64,000 bases of DNA from Thermosipho sp. (in: thermotogales) (lineage in GTDB: Bacteria > Thermotogota > Thermotogae > Thermotogales > Fervidobacteriaceae). The translations under genes and the position numbers were made by a program. The DNA is taken from positions 248,001 through 312,000 of the forward strand of contig JACDOA010000001.1 in NCBI GenBank assembly GCA_017656335.1. The letters are read 5' to 3'. Below, in pieces: positions 1 through 27,961 of the stretch. The notes below the pieces were generated by a model. The model worked only from the letters and a program-made list of their open reading frames with translations, did no database searches and had not been told where the DNA came from. Position 1 is the first letter of the stretch. Every line of letters starts with the position of its first letter.

Positions 1-274
1 ATTAGGTTATAACTATTTTGTAAGAAAGTTAAAAATAATAAAATGTATTTTTAACTTGGATTCCTATTTTTCTTTATCTGTTTATGTTAGAATTGCTTTG
101 AAATGCACTTATTTATTGTTAATGAATTATTTTTTGTAAGCCTAAAGGATTTTGAATGATCTAAATATTTGCTAATTTCAAAATTGAAAGTTATCTTGTG
201 TAAGTTTGTCAGAGTATTTTGTGTTTAGAATTGTAGATAGTCACGAAGATGTTGGTCAGATTTGAGATAATATA

Positions 275-1137: not shown

Positions 1138-2154
1138 GTGAGGATTGTCAGGGATTTTTCGCCATCTTGGTTTGCAGTAGTTATGGGAACAGGAATACTA
1201 GCAAACACAAGCCTCATATACTCGGAAAAAGTCCATATCCTGCTTCCATTTTCAAAATTTCTTTTCTACCTTAATGTAACGTTGTTTTTTATAATCCTTA
1301 TACCATGGATTCTAAGGTGGATCCTTTACCCGAAAAACGCAATGGAGGATCTTGTTCATCCCATATTTTCTAATTTTTATCCAACATTTTCGGTCGCCAT
1401 GCTAGTACTTTCGGGAAACTTTTATGTGTTTATAAAAAGCGTTTCCGTTTCTTTCACATTCTGGCTTCTTGGAACGGTGTTTACAATGTTTTTCTCTGTC
1501 TTCATTCCTTACCTCGTATTCAAGGGTGAACATGTGAAGATTGATCATATATGCCCTGCATGGTTTATTCCTCCAGTGGGGCTTATTGTCGTTCCTATTA
1601 TGGGTTCTGTTTTTGTAAAAATATTTTCAGGCACACTAAATCTTACGATTGAGCTTATCAACTATGTGTGTTGGAGTTCTGGCTTCTTCCTGTACATATC
1701 GCTCTTTGCTATAGTAATGTACAGGTTCATTCTCCATACACCTCTTCCCAATACTCTGGCACCAACGATCTGGATAAACCTCGGTCCTATTGGTGCAGGA
1801 ACCGCCGCACTCTTAAATATGATGAGTTCAACAACCGTACTGCAAAACAATGCGTCATTTAAAGCATTCGGATACATATTTTGGGGGTTTGGAATCTGGT
1901 GGGTTGCAATGGCTATTGTTATGACACTACATTATCTGAGAAAACTGAAGCTTCCATTTACCACATCATGGTGGGCCTTTACATTCCCACTTGGAGCATA
2001 CGTACTTGCAAGCCATGTCGTTTCAAAAGCAGTCGGGGTTACGCTTCCAGACTACATCGGACTTATTTTATATTTCCTGTTGCTATTCATATGGTTGATT
2101 ACGATGTTCAACACATTAAAAGGAGCGATCACAGGTAAAGTTTTCAAAAGATAG
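1138..2154 (+). CDS. TDT-family (TehA/Mae1/SLAC1-like) C4-dicarboxylate or anion transporter
   Basis: This 338-residue, very hydrophobic protein has about ten membrane segments. It opens with the family signature FSPSWFAVVMGTGILAN, typical of TDT proteins (tellurite resistance/dicarboxylate transporters such as TehA and the malate permease Mae1, plus plant SLAC1 channels). The length is normal. The start is a GTG with GGAGAAGGAGG upstream. The substrate cannot be read from sequence; malate, sulfite or another small anion is possible. The gene is richer in G+C than its surroundings (31 of 60 bases in 1741-1800), follows a broken sensor gene and ends at its own hairpin, which together suggest acquisition by transfer. 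Confidence 0.85.
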   Translation: MRIVRDFSPSWFAVVMGTGILANTSLIYSEKVHILLPFSKFLFYLNVTLFFIILIPWILRWILYPKNAMEDLVHPIFSNFYPTFSVAMLVLSGNFYVFIKSVSVSFTFWLLGTVFTMFFSVFIPYLVFKGEHVKIDHICPAWFIPPVGLIVVPIMGSVFVKIFSGTLNLTIELINYVCWSSGFFLYISLFAIVMYRFILHTPLPNTLAPTIWINLGPIGAGTAALLNMMSSTTVLQNNASFKAFGYIFWGFGIWWVAMAIVMTLHYLRKLKLPFTTSWWAFTFPLGAYVLASHVVSKAVGVTLPDYIGLILYFLLLFIWLITMFNTLKGAITGKVFKR

Positions 2155-3574: not shown

Positions 3575-3838
3575 TTATATCACACCCCCTTCTTCATCTT
3601 TCAACCTTTCATATGCCGCTCTAATTGTGAATCCTTTAATTGAAATTAACGTTGCTATTTTTTCAAAATACTTATCCAGTTTACTGGGTTTGTTTCTAGT
3701 TTTAGGTTTTCCCTGATAACCGTTCCAATATTTCTTTACTGTCCTTCTATCAATTCCATATATTCTGGCTAGTTCAGAAAAGTTAGGTTTCAAATCCATC
3801 TCTCTTAACATTTGCAAATGTTGTTTGATTTTTTCCAC
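3575..3838 (-). pseudogene. istA: Truncated IS21-family transposase (IstA N-terminus)
   Basis: Only about 87 residues remain of a transposase normally near 400-500 residues. The kept part is the N-terminal helix-turn-helix typical of IstA: NFSELARIYGIDRRTVKKYW, then a basic linker and AAYERLKDEEGG before a stop. The DDE catalytic core and the ATPase partner istB are absent. The start chosen is the GTG at 3838, preceded by GGAAGGAGGG, rather than the upstream ATG at 3883. The family call is based on the HTH pattern and the familiar start MEKIKQHLQMLREMDLKPNF. Confidence 0.7.
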
Positions 3839-3842
3839 TTTT

Positions 3843-3871
3843 GGTATCCCTCCTTCCAAAAGAAGGATACC
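3843..3871 (-). promoter_or_regulatory. Hairpin over the istA ribosome binding site
   Basis: GGTATCC (3843-3849) and GGATACC (3865-3871) are complementary, and the Shine-Dalgarno sequence (minus-strand GGAAGGAGGG, 3848-3857) lies within the hairpin. A folded leader would restrict transposase translation, a common way for insertion sequences to limit expression. The same GGAGGGATAC string occurs in the hairpin before the TDT transporter. Confidence 0.4.
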
Positions 3872-3922
3872 TTTGATGTACAATTTTGTGCATCTTTATT
3901 TTCCTCTTTTGGCTGTTTGTAT

Positions 3923-3943
3923 GCTTCTTTCCAAAGATACTTG
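3923..3943 (+). repeat. Left terminal inverted repeat of the ISL3 element
   Basis: The repeat core TTCTTTCCAAAGATACTTG (3925-3943) is the exact reverse complement of 5170-5188. The outermost pair differs by one base (GC here, GG in the other end). Confidence 0.85.
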
Positions 3944-3987
3944 TAATAAAATATGAAGATGGTAAAATCAAGAAAAAAACGAAGGGA

Positions 3988-5161
3988 ATGAATTATGTGG
4001 ACGAAATTGTTAATTTACTCGATAAGAATTTAAAGTATATTAAGCATGAAATTACAAAAGATACTATCTATAACTATGTAGTTTCAAATAGAAAAAAGGT
4101 TAAATGTCCAACTTGTGGCGTAGAAACAGATAAGGTACATTCGAAATATAAAAGAAGTTACCAACTGGTTGAAAGAATATTTGAATCTTGAAATAGTATC
4201 AAGAGATGGGTCATTGAGTTTTAAAAATGCTATTGAAAAAGCAAATAAAAAAATAATACAAGTAGGTGATAGATTTCATATATTCAAAAATTTAATAGAT
4301 TATTGCAAAGAATATATACTTAATATACTGTTAAAACGAAAATAAAAATAGATGAAGAAGAAATAATACCTGATGAAGATAATAAATTAAAATCGAAAAA
4401 AAAATACAGTAAAAAAATTAACTAAGGCAGAAAAATACAAAAATGCGCGAATATTAAAAGCAAAACAACTAAGAAATAAGGGATCAAGTTATTCAGAGAT
4501 AGGTAGAATAATGGGTTTGGATAGAAGAACCGTGAAAAAATATGTTGAATTTACCAAAGAATGGTCTCATAAATTGCGTAAAAAGGGAGTATATTAGATA
4601 AATATCGAAAAATAATTTTAGATTTACTAAATGGTGGATATTCAAATAAAATGATACATAAGGAAATAACAAATTTAGGATATAGAGGAATTGTTGAGAA
4701 AATATATAAAGAAGGTAAAAGAAAATAACCTAGCGTCAAATAAAAATGAAAAAATAATAAGTCGTAGTAAAATAATTAAGCTTCTTTATATGCTAATAGA
4801 GAAGATAAAAGGATTAAGTAAAGAAGATTTGAGAAAAATAATGGAAAAATATAAGTTTTTAAAAGAAATATATAGAACATTGAAAGAGTTTAAAGAAATA
4901 TTTTCAATGAAAAGCATTAAAAAACTTCATGGGTGGATAAAAAAATATGAAAAGAGCAAGATAAGAGAAATAAGAAAATTTATAGTCGGATTGAAAAGAG
5001 ATATAGTAGCGGTAGAAAATGCAATAAAATATGATTATAGCAATGGATTAGCAGAAGGAAAAATAAATAAAATAAAATTAATAAAAAGGAAAATGTATGG
5101 AAGGAATAATTTTGAAACATTGAGAAATAGGGTACTTATGTTAGAACATAACTGCAATTAA
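3988..5161 (+). pseudogene. ISL3-family transposase, broken into four or more pieces
   Basis: From the ATG at 3988 (GAAGGGA upstream) the frames give the zinc-finger N-terminus (VKCPTCGVETDKVHSKYKRS), a stop, then in another frame the catalytic core (LEIVSRDGSLSFKNAIEKAN followed by QVGDRFHIFKNL), another break, an internal HTH (NKGSSYSEIGRIMGLDRRTV), and an open C-terminus from about 4691 ending NGLAEGKINKIKLIKRKMYG and NNFETLRNRVL. The CPxCG motif, the DRFH core and the final EGxxNKIKxIKRxxYG block are ISL3 hallmarks. At least three frameshifts or stops make it inactive. Confidence 0.85.
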
Positions 5162-20654: not shown

Positions 20655-20740
20655 GTGAAAAATGAGATAAGTAAACTAAAGGTTTTCAAAACATAATTTT
20701 AATTTTTATCATTTAGTAACCACAAAATACATTTAATTTT

Positions 20741-20944
20741 CTATTGCTCAATAAGTTTTTTTCTTCTAAGATACTCTTCTTCACTAATTTCATCGTTAGC
20801 AAACTTCTCATTTAGAATTTTTAATGCTTTACTTTTTGCATCATCTCCATCATTCTGAAAAATTCTTAATTTTTTTAATATATTTTCATCTTTCAGTAAA
20901 TACCAAACTATAAAAATGAATCCTAACATAAAGAAAAACATCAT
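20741..20944 (-). CDS. Short SHOCT-domain membrane protein
   Basis: A 67-residue protein with one N-terminal membrane helix (MMFFFMLGFIFIVWYLL) and a C-terminal SHOCT motif (KALKILNEKFANDEISEEEY followed by LRRKKLIE). SHOCT domains are short two-helix modules often placed at the ends of membrane or nucleic-acid-binding proteins; their exact role is unclear. It is the last gene of the copper operon and resembles its upstream neighbour in the C-terminal 35 residues, suggesting a duplication. Confidence 0.75.
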   Translation of the reverse strand: MMFFFMLGFIFIVWYLLKDENILKKLRIFQNDGDDAKSKALKILNEKFANDEISEEEYLRRKKLIEQ

Positions 20945-21040
20945 TTTATCCTCTCCTTTTCTTTTTATTAATTTCTCATTTAAAGTTTACAAAAGAGTAC
21001 TTATAATAGCTTTCATCAACTTTAATTAACAATTCTTTAG

Positions 21041-24526: not shown

Positions 24527-25738
24527 ATGGTTGAATTTCAGGAAACACTTGGTGTTTACACAAGTGTAGGTGGTTGGAAAAAAGCTATTCTCGGTCTTCA
24601 ACATTTTGTAGCTATGTTTGGTGCCACCGTTCTAGTCCCCCTTCTTACAGGTCTAGATCCCCTCGTTTCCCTTTTCACAGCCGGTCTTGGAACCTTGATA
24701 TTCCATTTTATCACCAAAAAAGAAGTGCCAGTTTTCCTTGGTTCTAGTTTTGCATTTATAGGACCTATTTTAATAGTAAAATCACAAACTGGAGATCTAA
24801 GATATGCAACTGGCGGAATTGTAGCTGCAGGTTCGGTATATATTTTACTTGCCTTCTTAGTAAAATTCATCGGTGTAGAAAGAATTAAAAAATTATTTCC
24901 ACCTGTTGTAACTGGTCCTATGATCATGGTAATCGGATTAAGTTTAAGCCCAGTTGCCATTGGATGGGCATCACAGAATTGGGGAATTTCAATAACAGTT
25001 ATTGTATCTGTAATATTGGCATCAACAGTATTTAGAGGATTCTTTAATTTAATTCCAGTTCTTATTGGTGTAAGTGTAGGATACTTTGCTTCAATTATAA
25101 CTGGAAACATCGATTTCACACCCATAACTAATAGCAGTTGGATCTCCGTGCCAAAATTCATGTTTCCAAAATTTGATCTCTCATCTATTTTATTAGTTGC
25201 CCCAGTTGCTCTAGCAACTTTTATGGAACATATTGGTGATATAACAACCAATGGAGCTGTAGTAGGAAAAAACTTCTTAGTAAAGCCAGGATTACACAAA
25301 ACTTTAATAGGTGATGGAATTGCTACAATGGTTGCAGGATTTTTAGGTGGTCCAGCGAATACAACTTACAGTGAAAATACAGGTGTTCTTGCATTAACAA
25401 AAGTATATGATCCCTCAGTTCTAAGAATGGCTGCTATTTTTGCAATCTTTATGTCATTTTTATCAAAATTTGGTAGTATTCTGCAAACCATTCCTCAACC
25501 AGTTATCGGTGGAGTAAGCCTGATTCTGTTCGGTATGATAGCTTCGGTAGGTATTAGAACTATTGTTAATGAAAAGGTCGATTTTTCAAAACCCAAAAAT
25601 TTAATTGTAGCATCACTTATTTTAACAATAGGAATTGGTGGCGCGAGCGTAAAAATTGGTACAGTTGAATTAAAAGGCCTTGCTTTAGCAGCATTAGTTG
25701 GAATAATTGCAAATTTGTTAATACCTGAAAAAAATTAA
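24527..25738 (+). CDS. uraA: Uracil permease (NCS2 family)
   Basis: UraA/PyrP imports uracil with protons for the pyrimidine salvage pathway. The 403-residue protein has the NCS2 layout with about 14 membrane segments, the N-terminal GLQHFVAMFGATVLVPLLTG, the substrate-site glutamate in ATFMEHIGDITTNG, and the GGPANTTYSENTGVLALTKV block that contains the second conserved Glu/Asn region. Uracil over xanthine is supported by ENTG and by the PyrR-type hairpin upstream. It is transcribed alone, ending at a terminator. Confidence 0.93.
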   Translation: MVEFQETLGVYTSVGGWKKAILGLQHFVAMFGATVLVPLLTGLDPLVSLFTAGLGTLIFHFITKKEVPVFLGSSFAFIGPILIVKSQTGDLRYATGGIVAAGSVYILLAFLVKFIGVERIKKLFPPVVTGPMIMVIGLSLSPVAIGWASQNWGISITVIVSVILASTVFRGFFNLIPVLIGVSVGYFASIITGNIDFTPITNSSWISVPKFMFPKFDLSSILLVAPVALATFMEHIGDITTNGAVVGKNFLVKPGLHKTLIGDGIATMVAGFLGGPANTTYSENTGVLALTKVYDPSVLRMAAIFAIFMSFLSKFGSILQTIPQPVIGGVSLILFGMIASVGIRTIVNEKVDFSKPKNLIVASLILTIGIGGASVKIGTVELKGLALAALVGIIANLLIPEKN

Positions 25739-25764: not shown

Positions 25765-25792
25765 GGCTCCAGTTCTAGCTGGAGCCTTCTTT
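25765..25792 (+). terminator. Terminator after uraA
   Basis: GGCTCCAG (25765-25772) and CTGGAGCC (25779-25786) form an 8-bp G+C-rich stem, followed by TTCTTT. Confidence 0.8.
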
Positions 25793-25888
25793 ATTGCTAA
25801 AAAAACAAAATTTTCTTATAAGCTTTCAATTCATTATTCATTTTTATTATAACTAATAACTAAATATTCTAATATAAAATCTATTAAA

Positions 25889-26294
25889 AATTTGTTGAAT
25901 GCTTTAGAATTTGCCACTACAACAAATAATATTGCACATGTAAATGCAACTTCTCAAGGAAATGAATGGTATCACATTTAGCTATCATAATGAATCGATC
26001 TAGTTGATGAAAAAACCTGTACATTTAACTTTGACACTTCAGTCTCTTTAAAAACTTTTATTCCTGTAAAATAACTTATTGTTCAAACGAACCTGATTTC
26101 TGGAATTATGAATGGTGGAAACCTGTAAAAACTTTAACTCCAAAAGCAACAACTTTTACATTTGAATTTAACTCACATAAAACTGATGACCCATCTTTAC
26201 GGAAAGTTGTGTAGTTAGACTTACTTTTAAGTTGGAAAAATCTTCTACAGGAACTAAAATCCATATAGATAATGTTTCAATATTCGAAAAATAA
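25889..26294 (+). pseudogene. Decayed carbohydrate-binding module (first copy)
   Basis: There is no intact frame, but successive frames give pieces of a CBM4/9-like beta-sandwich: EFATTTNNIAHVNATSQGNE followed by WYHI and a stop, a central EWWKPVKTLTPKATTFTFEF with NSHKTDD, and a last piece RLTFKLEKSSTGTKIHIDNV then SIFEK and TAA at 26292-26294. The order and final DNVSI strand match the intact-looking module just downstream (TFTFEFT ... IYLDDVNI). Several stops and frameshifts separate the pieces. It looks like an older duplicate. Confidence 0.6.
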
Positions 26295-26300
26295 CTTTAA

Positions 26301-26948
26301 TTTAGAAGTGATAAAATAACAATAAATCAAATTTTATCCTATGTAACAATCGGTCTTTTAGCAGTATTTTTAGTTGGTGGTTTTGTATTTAATAATATAA
26401 CTGTTCAACCACCGGAAGTACAACAACCTGCAGTTGAAGAACAAGTTGAAACTGCTTCTACAACAAGCAAAACTGGACAAATAGTTAAAAACGGAACTTT
26501 TGATAAAGTTGAAGATCTTAACGACCAAGCTGAAAATCCAAATAGTTGGTGGCTTTGGCAGGCTTCTGATTATGATATAAGTCCAGCAAAAGCTGTTGCA
26601 AAAATCGAAAATGGAAATGCATTAATTAAGGTAATTAATCCTGGTGGAGAAACATGGCATATTCAATTTGATCAATGGATAAATTTAGAAAGAAAAGCAA
26701 AATATGAAATATCTTTCAAGGTAAAAGCTGATATTTCAAGAATTATCTTTGTAAAAGTCCTTCAAAACCATGATCCGTATACAATTTATTTTGAGCAAAA
26801 AATTAATTTAACTCAAGAATGGCAGACTTTTACATTTGAATTTACTCTACCACCTGATGCAGATGAAGTAGTAAACTTAAGCTTTGAACTTGGACTTGAT
26901 AAACCTACCACAATATATTTAGATGATGTAAATATTATCAAAGAATAA
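26301..26948 (+). pseudogene. Membrane-anchored CBM4/9-like protein with no standard start codon
   Basis: An uninterrupted frame of 215 sense codons runs from just after a TAA (26298-26300) to a TAA at 26946-26948. It encodes a membrane anchor (ILSYVTIGLLAVFLVGGFVF), a Pro/Gln/Glu linker (VQPPEVQQPAVEEQVETAST) and a full CBM4/9-like module (IVKNGTFDKVED, SWWLWQASDYD, ENGNALIKVINPGGETWHIQ, LTQEWQTFTFEFTLPPD, TTIYLDDVNIIKE). No ATG, GTG or TTG precedes the anchor. An ATA near 26313 after GAAGTGAT is the only start with Shine-Dalgarno-like sequence. It is either a gene that lost its start or one using a non-standard start. Confidence 0.6.
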
Positions 26949-26966
26949 GCATGTGTTTTTTTAAAG

Positions 26967-26998
26967 AGCCTTCCAGTTTAAGCTGGAAGGCTTTTTCT
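26967..26998 (+). terminator. Terminator overlapping the 3' end of the acyltransferase gene
   Basis: AGCCTTCCAG (26967-26976) pairs with CTGGAAGGCT (26983-26992), then TTTTC and T-rich sequence. It is placed for the CBM gene on the plus strand. The stop codon of the minus-strand acyltransferase lies inside the hairpin. Confidence 0.8.
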
Positions 26999-27961
26999 TT
27001 TTTTTATTAAATGAAATTGTCCAGAAAGAAAATATATAATATTTTTTGGAACAAACTTTAAAAAGAAATATAAAATGAAAAGTGCAATAATATAATAAAG
27101 CCACCATAATTTTTCAAGAAGCGAAATAGGGTCATTAAAAAATGGTGCTATTAATCCAGGTAGAACAATATGATACCCTAAAACAAATATTGTATATTTT
27201 CCAAACAATTCAAAAAAACTTTTGATTCTTTCATTCGTAATTAAATTAGAAAGAGAAATAATAATTAAAATAAATGCTAATTCTCCTAAATATGAAAGAA
27301 AAGGATAATTACCATAGTTGTTTTCACGCCAATCATTAAGTCCGTTTACCTTTCCTATTAATATCAATCCCAAAAGAGAAATTAAAAAAATTGAAAATGG
27401 TTTTTTAATTTTATAAGTAAAACCCTTTTTTCTAAAAATATATCCAAAATAAAACCATATTAATCCATGAAATGCAACATCTAATTTAAAGAAACGATTT
27501 TGGCTATGAAAAAAAGCGGTAGATATGAATGACAAAACTGGAATAAAATGAATCAATCTTAATTTTGTTAAAACCAAAAAAGTAATTTCAGCTATTACAA
27601 ACATATATAAATACCATAATGGAACTACATTAACGGGAATTGTAAGAGGACTATATCCAAAAATTATAAAATCAAAAAGTGTTGTAAATACACTATTATT
27701 ATACTGCACAAATTTATTGATAAAATAATAAATTGTATATCCCACAAAACTTAAAAAAATAAAAGGGACCCATAGATTTAATAAAACCTTTTTAAGCTTT
27801 ATTGTAAAATTTTCATCTTTGAAAAGATATCCGGAAATAAACATAAAAGCAGACAAAAGGTACGAAAAATAAACAACTAAAGAATATGGAACATAAGAAT
27901 GAGCAAGAACAACCAGTAAAATCAAAATCCCTTTTGAAACATCAATTTCCCTTATTCTCAT
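26978..27961 (-). CDS. Acyltransferase 3 family membrane protein
   Basis: The 327-residue protein has about ten membrane segments and the acyltransferase-3 start: MRIREIDVSKGILILLVVLA followed by HSYVP, with the conserved histidine at the end of the first helix, and SYLLSAFMFISGYLFKD. Such enzymes O-acylate extracellular or membrane-bound sugars. The acceptor is unknown; no glycan cluster is adjacent, though the carbohydrate-binding remnants lie next door. A GGAGGGATGAA site precedes the ATG. The last codons lie in the convergent terminator. Confidence 0.85.
   Translation of the reverse strand: MRIREIDVSKGILILLVVLAHSYVPYSLVVYFSYLLSAFMFISGYLFKDENFTIKLKKVLLNLWVPFIFLSFVGYTIYYFINKFVQYNNSVFTTLFDFIIFGYSPLTIPVNVVPLWYLYMFVIAEITFLVLTKLRLIHFIPVLSFISTAFFHSQNRFFKLDVAFHGLIWFYFGYIFRKKGFTYKIKKPFSIFLISLLGLILIGKVNGLNDWRENNYGNYPFLSYLGELAFILIIISLSNLITNERIKSFFELFGKYTIFVLGYHIVLPGLIAPFFNDPISLLEKLWWLYYIIALFILYFFLKFVPKNIIYFLSGQFHLIKKRKSLPA

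Follow-up and report, generated by a model that had tools for sequence, protein, structure and literature searches.

The open frame and its missing start codon

Can an open and conserved reading frame without any canonical start codon still be a working gene, or is it one that was lost only recently? This question is raised by a locus within a 64,000-nucleotide stretch of a Thermosipho genome (hereafter, the window), in which the stop-to-stop frame at positions 26301–26948 (plus strand) comprises 215 codons, interrupted by neither a stop nor a frameshift. According to the first-pass annotation, ATG, GTG, and TTG are missing before the membrane anchor encoded by this frame, which was confirmed by a frame scan; furthermore, none of the three occurs in frame downstream of the anchor. 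The nearest upstream in-frame stop is the TAA at 26298–26300, and five codons (TTT AGA AGT GAT AAA) immediately precede the ATA at position 26316. The proposal of this ATA as the best-placed codon was upheld by its alignment with the starts of orthologous genes, but it follows GAAGTGATAAA rather than directly GAAGTGAT, as had been assumed. All 210 codons from the ATA to the last sense codon are free of ATG, GTG, and TTG, and a canonical restart further downstream was ruled out, since the frame holds no such codon. A frame open by chance was also ruled out, the probability being approximately 7e-9 for 215 open codons at the local base composition. The features of the locus are compiled in Table 1.

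Table 1. Features of the locus and of related loci (window positions, unless residues or a locus are named)
Feature	Position	Strand	Remarks
Xanthine/uracil-type permease gene	24527..25738	+	Ancestral upstream neighbour; same order in G012
Terminator-like hairpin	25765..25786	+	3' of permease, before remnant
CBM lipoprotein pseudogene remnant	25880..26291	+	Residues 68-210, in three frames with stops; 5' third missing
15-codon frame	ATG 26272 to TAA 26317-26319	+	Stop overlaps the ATA as ATAA, preceded by four A
Decayed Shine-Dalgarno region	26303..26315	+	TAGAAGTGATAAA; orthologs AGGAGGAGTGAAAAA, AAGGAGGAGTAAAA; evaluated by anti-SD duplex
ATA replacing ATG (G012) or GTG (G001)	26316..26318	+	Ungapped protein alignment, MAFFT DNA alignment
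Anchored CBM4 gene, open frame	26316..26948	+	From ATA at the ancestral start position to stop TAA
Parts of the CBM4 protein	Residues 1-5; 6-24; to ~55; ~57-208		Counted from ATA: N-terminal residues; transmembrane anchor; linker; CBM4 module
Terminator-like hairpin	26963..26996	+	3' of CBM4 frame
Acyltransferase gene (Acyl_transf_3)	26978..27961	-	Conserved convergent downstream neighbour
Outer-membrane-like protein gene, first of the operon in relatives	L031 1039-1905; L035 7565-8437		288-290 residues
Permease-acyltransferase gap, G002 and G003	L060 6356-6408; L061 8120-8158		51 and 37 nt
Identical 91-base ends in G001	L031 1-91; L032 end; L033 end; L034 1-91		
infC start, G000	L063 near 2002-2005	-	Relatives at L065-L069

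The encoded protein

The hydrophobic segment forming the anchor has a mean hydropathy of 2.34, and the frame matches the Pfam family CBM_4_9 with 83.2 bits (E 2.9e-23) against a curated cut-off of 25.9. The top match of a profile built from 30 aligned sequences was the PDB entry 1gui (E 1.3e-85), which was also matched by the window protein alone over residues 57–207 (phmmer, E 2.4e-53). In the AlphaFold model, pLDDT is approximately 95 over the module, 128 of the 210 residues reach at least 90, and residues 1–52 form a low-confidence part. When the predicted module was compared with the PDB using Foldseek, 1gui again ranked first (target TM 0.95, rmsd 1.2, 56% identity). The C-terminal part is thus predicted to be a CBM4 module with a beta-sandwich fold like that of 1gui, and its closest counterpart is the CBM4 of the Thermotoga maritima laminarinase 16A. 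The 1gui module binds beta-1,3-glucan.

Of the 38 alignment columns with a conservation of 90% or more in the remaining rows, the window sequence deviates at 5; 26 of the 29 other sequences deviate at none to two of these columns, and three distant ones at 9–12. These departures give the protein a relaxed look that would suit a recent inactivation. The only other module match in the genome at an E-value of 1 is a 5'-nucleotidase with a C-terminal CBM_4_9 (L002 1495-3336, minus strand).

Orthologs and the ancestral start

A match to the CBM protein was obtained in 25 of the 61 genomes searched, most of the remaining strong matches being CBM modules within larger frames. The anchored gene was matched in synteny only by G012 (57% identity, residues 2–214) and, in two pieces covering residues 5–130 and 102–214, by G001, a MAG that, like the window, belongs to Thermosipho. 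Four genomes of this genus were compared, namely G001, the window's own genome (G000), and the congeners G002 and G003. An initial contig search returned no relative; when repeated with an alignment, it gave six loci, four of them G001 contigs, and a further anchor-bearing ortholog was found neither there nor among the 61 genomes.

Comparison with related genomes had been proposed as a means of finding the ancestral start, and both relatives carry a conventional one at the same codon. The G012 gene begins AGGAGGAGTGAAAAA-ATG-TCT-ACT-AAC-CAA-ATT and that of G001 AAGGAGGAGTAAAA-GTG-TCG-TTA-AAT-CAA-ATT, the window counterpart being TAGAAGTGATAAA-ATA-ACA-ATA-AAT-CAA-ATT. In both the protein and the MAFFT DNA alignments, the ATA falls on the ATG and GTG with no adjacent gap. 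Identical 91-base contig ends are shared in G001 by the anchored CBM gene and the CBM module of a 5'-nucleotidase, and the assembly breaks at these ends, as a recent gene conversion or duplication would cause.

Loss of the ribosome-binding site

The anti-SD duplex at the leader of the ATA amounts to -2.2 kcal/mol, compared with -10.2 and -11.1 kcal/mol for the orthologs in G012 and G001, respectively. A value as good as -2.2 was reached by 36% of 2000 random 20-mers from the window. Of 36 comparison genes picked from the window's list of open reading frames, with the listed starts used, 35 have a stronger Shine-Dalgarno sequence (median -10.05), and the sole exception has a leader of just 7 nt within the window. 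The Shine-Dalgarno sequence of the CBM4 frame is lost, its value lying at background level.

These results bear on two explanations that would spare the gene. Firstly, a sequencing or assembly error, or a polymorphism of this strain, may conceal a normal start in the species: the ATA is one base away from ATG, the assembly is a draft of 33 contigs, and none of the four genomes of the genus is a second genome of the window's species. However, one wrong base is insufficient to account for several independent changes in the Shine-Dalgarno region together with a wrecked upstream operon, and we regard this explanation as improbable. Secondly, translation might enter the CBM frame from the 15-codon frame upstream, by termination-reinitiation or by -1 slippage on AAAA, for which the overlap and the A run are indeed present. 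However, neither the ATG at 26272 nor the GTG at 26308 is preceded by a Shine-Dalgarno sequence (+0.4 and +0.2 kcal/mol), no heptameric slip site was seen, and the orthologs, with their conventional start, show nothing similar, so that such an entry is very hard to believe.

Could the ATA itself be in use?

The gene infC is known for non-canonical starts and was used as a control. In six of the eight loci read, translation of this gene begins at ATT or ATC, preceded by a Shine-Dalgarno sequence of the GGAGGG type, the codon being ATC in G000 and ATT in G001, G002, G003, G010, and G012; in G016 the scripted search did not locate the site, and G029 showed no evident start of this kind. In two of these genomes, no upstream choice is left, an in-frame TGA lying directly 5' of the ATT in G012 and an in-frame TAG three codons before it in G010, with no canonical codon between. 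For G000, the ATC is the probable start as judged from the sequence, in which an in-frame TTG is also present upstream; its Shine-Dalgarno value is -10.7. The lineage therefore seems to combine non-canonical starts with a strong Shine-Dalgarno sequence, which the CBM site is without.

In the available part of PMC13009471, Staphylococcus aureus infC, ccpN, and citZ are described as starting at AUA and cvfC1 at AUU, the non-canonical start of infC being stated explicitly. Reporter assays reached approximately 10% of AUG for AUA starts, with ccpN attaining as much as 30% in rich medium; extended Shine-Dalgarno motifs are given for infC, ccpN, and cvfC1, and the starts of ccpN and cvfC1 are described as conserved (PMC13009471, available part). 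The available part of PMC11497404 contains nothing on AUA as a start codon.

A living gene, translated at a low level from the ATA without a recognisable Shine-Dalgarno sequence, would accord with the intact and recently constrained frame, with the AUA starts of S. aureus, with the ATT/ATC reading of infC in this lineage, and with a Shine-Dalgarno sequence whose erosion apparently took place during continued constraint on the frame. Against this, two features expected of a functional AUA start are both absent: the site has no strong or extended Shine-Dalgarno sequence (-2.2), and the codon is replaced by ATG and GTG in the relatives. Furthermore, the ATA site lies partly inside an A/U hairpin, although 17 of 200 shuffles gave an equally good fold, so that the hairpin is not significant. 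Overall, we consider a living ATA-started gene unlikely.

Selection on the frame and timing of the losses

A codon model with three taxa rejected omega = 1 for the window branch as a whole (lnL -1608.89 vs. -1590.24); only likelihood contrasts were used, and the branch omega values were set aside, synonymous sites being saturated and some branch lengths lying at bounds. The best value for a neutral tail on the window branch was zero for all 204 codons, and in five other triples, using the module alone, small positive values gained at most 0.39 lnL. With the stop-survival term included, a neutral tail of 0 to roughly 0.035–0.075 substitutions per site fits, these bounds combining lnL drops with the stop term (by hand for the module-only triples); bounds without the stop term are looser, ranging from approximately 0.06 (204 codons) to beyond 0.167 (the G012/G001 module-only triple). 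Rejection of omega = 1, together with a neutral tail for which zero fits, indicates that purifying selection on the frame lasted until very recently or still continues.

The decay of the Shine-Dalgarno sequence corresponds to about three hits in 8 nt, counted on the alignment after the fact; the probability of this is 0.0025 for a divergence of 0.033 substitutions per site and 0.027 for one of 0.08. Such a decay is improbable within the neutral time of the frame, so the loss of the Shine-Dalgarno sequence and that of the start codon were probably not one recent event, and the former is read as having eroded earlier than the point at which selection on the frame ended, or independently of it. 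This timing is the main tension in a simple story of gene loss and the ground for considering a live AUA. In that case, selection after the truncation of the operon would have kept the frame, tolerating or even favouring very low initiation at an AUA without a Shine-Dalgarno sequence, which we hold to be a small but real possibility. If true, it would provide a start site in a thermophile with neither an AUG-like codon nor a Shine-Dalgarno sequence and, if the ATA is used, a test of whether a bacterial gene can persist without both.

The surrounding operon

The remnant upstream of the CBM4 frame had been interpreted as an older copy of the same module, which proved to be wrong. Its pieces (25880–26056, 26077–26166, and 26202–26291; combined E 8.6e-6) match the CBM lipoprotein of G012, a different gene, which in the orthologous operon lies 5' of the anchored CBM gene, and the older-duplicate interpretation was rejected because the remnant resembles this lipoprotein rather than the anchored gene. 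The gene order in G012 is gltX, permease, outer-membrane-like protein (290 residues), CBM lipoprotein, anchored CBM, acyltransferase, and miaB. In G001, the three operon genes are located next to gltX on one contig, and the 3' half of the anchored gene is followed by the acyltransferase and miaB on another; an orthologous permease was not found in this genome, the best match being a 55% paralog.

The outer-membrane-like protein, a putative partner of the CBM proteins, has no Pfam match. Neither it nor the lipoprotein was matched elsewhere in G000 at an E-value of 0.01. A candidate survivor of the former at 20721–20975 (E 0.002 without composition correction) contains a stop and was taken as a chance match, since its position next to gltX and its orientation agree with the layout of neither relative. 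In G002 and G003, the permease and the acyltransferase nearly abut (Table 1), and none of the three operon genes was matched. G010 has 1.46 kb between the two neighbours and no recognisable operon remnant therein (best match to the outer-membrane-like protein, E 0.009). A promoter search was uninformative, with 11 promoter-like sites compared with 7.9 (sd 2.8) in shuffles. Elsewhere in the window (3575–5161), short frames on both strands resemble, by eye, broken pieces of a transposase.

A dying operon as the most probable explanation

The window lacks the first operon gene and retains only fragments of the second; the third is open, with an ATA and without a Shine-Dalgarno sequence. Most probably, the CBM4 gene is the last of a decaying operon and was inactivated recently, its frame still being open, and we favour a recently lost initiation site over a working ATA start. 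Of the two readings offered by the first-pass annotation, fresh start-codon loss is the one retained, with ATG and GTG in the relatives and the Shine-Dalgarno sequence lost as well, and a non-standard start is disfavoured.

The ancestral operon would have encoded the outer-membrane-like protein, the CBM lipoprotein, and the membrane-anchored CBM4 protein. Judging by the distances in G012, a net deletion of approximately 1.2 kb in the interval separating the permease from the lipoprotein remnant may have taken the operon leader, the first gene, and the beginning of the second gene, which would then have drifted. The third gene would have stayed under selection for a time before losing its initiation site, and may now be translated little or not at all. 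The arrangement in G002 and G003, where the operon is gone, represents a possible end point. The event is ordinary in kind; the locus offers a snapshot of a small operon dying, whole in some relatives, partly decayed here, and missing altogether from the site in two congeners. The locus further illustrates that an open, conserved frame is no proof of a live gene.

Comparison with known systems

The CBM4 frame resembles the anchored CBM genes of G012 and G001 (Thermosipho sp. MAG JASKLO01) in synteny, anchor, linker, and module, with 55–63% protein identity; in contrast to the window, both relatives have a conventional start, a strong Shine-Dalgarno sequence, and intact upstream genes for the lipoprotein and the outer-membrane-like protein. 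In module sequence and predicted fold, it resembles CBM4-2 of the T. maritima laminarinase 16A (PDB 1gui); unlike there, the module is free-standing and membrane-anchored, outside any glycoside hydrolase, and a glucan ligand is putative. With infC and the S. aureus genes ccpN, citZ, and cvfC1, it shares a non-canonical first codon of the ATA type, but neither the extended Shine-Dalgarno motif of S. aureus infC, ccpN, and cvfC1 nor the conserved start of ccpN and cvfC1 (PMC13009471, available part). In its history, it resembles bacterial start-loss pseudogenes, in which the initiation site is destroyed in one lineage while relatives remain intact and neighbouring genes decay; here as well, orthologs in synteny are intact and have a conventional start at this codon. 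Unlike such pseudogenes, however, the frame in the window is fully open, and recent selection on it is detectable.
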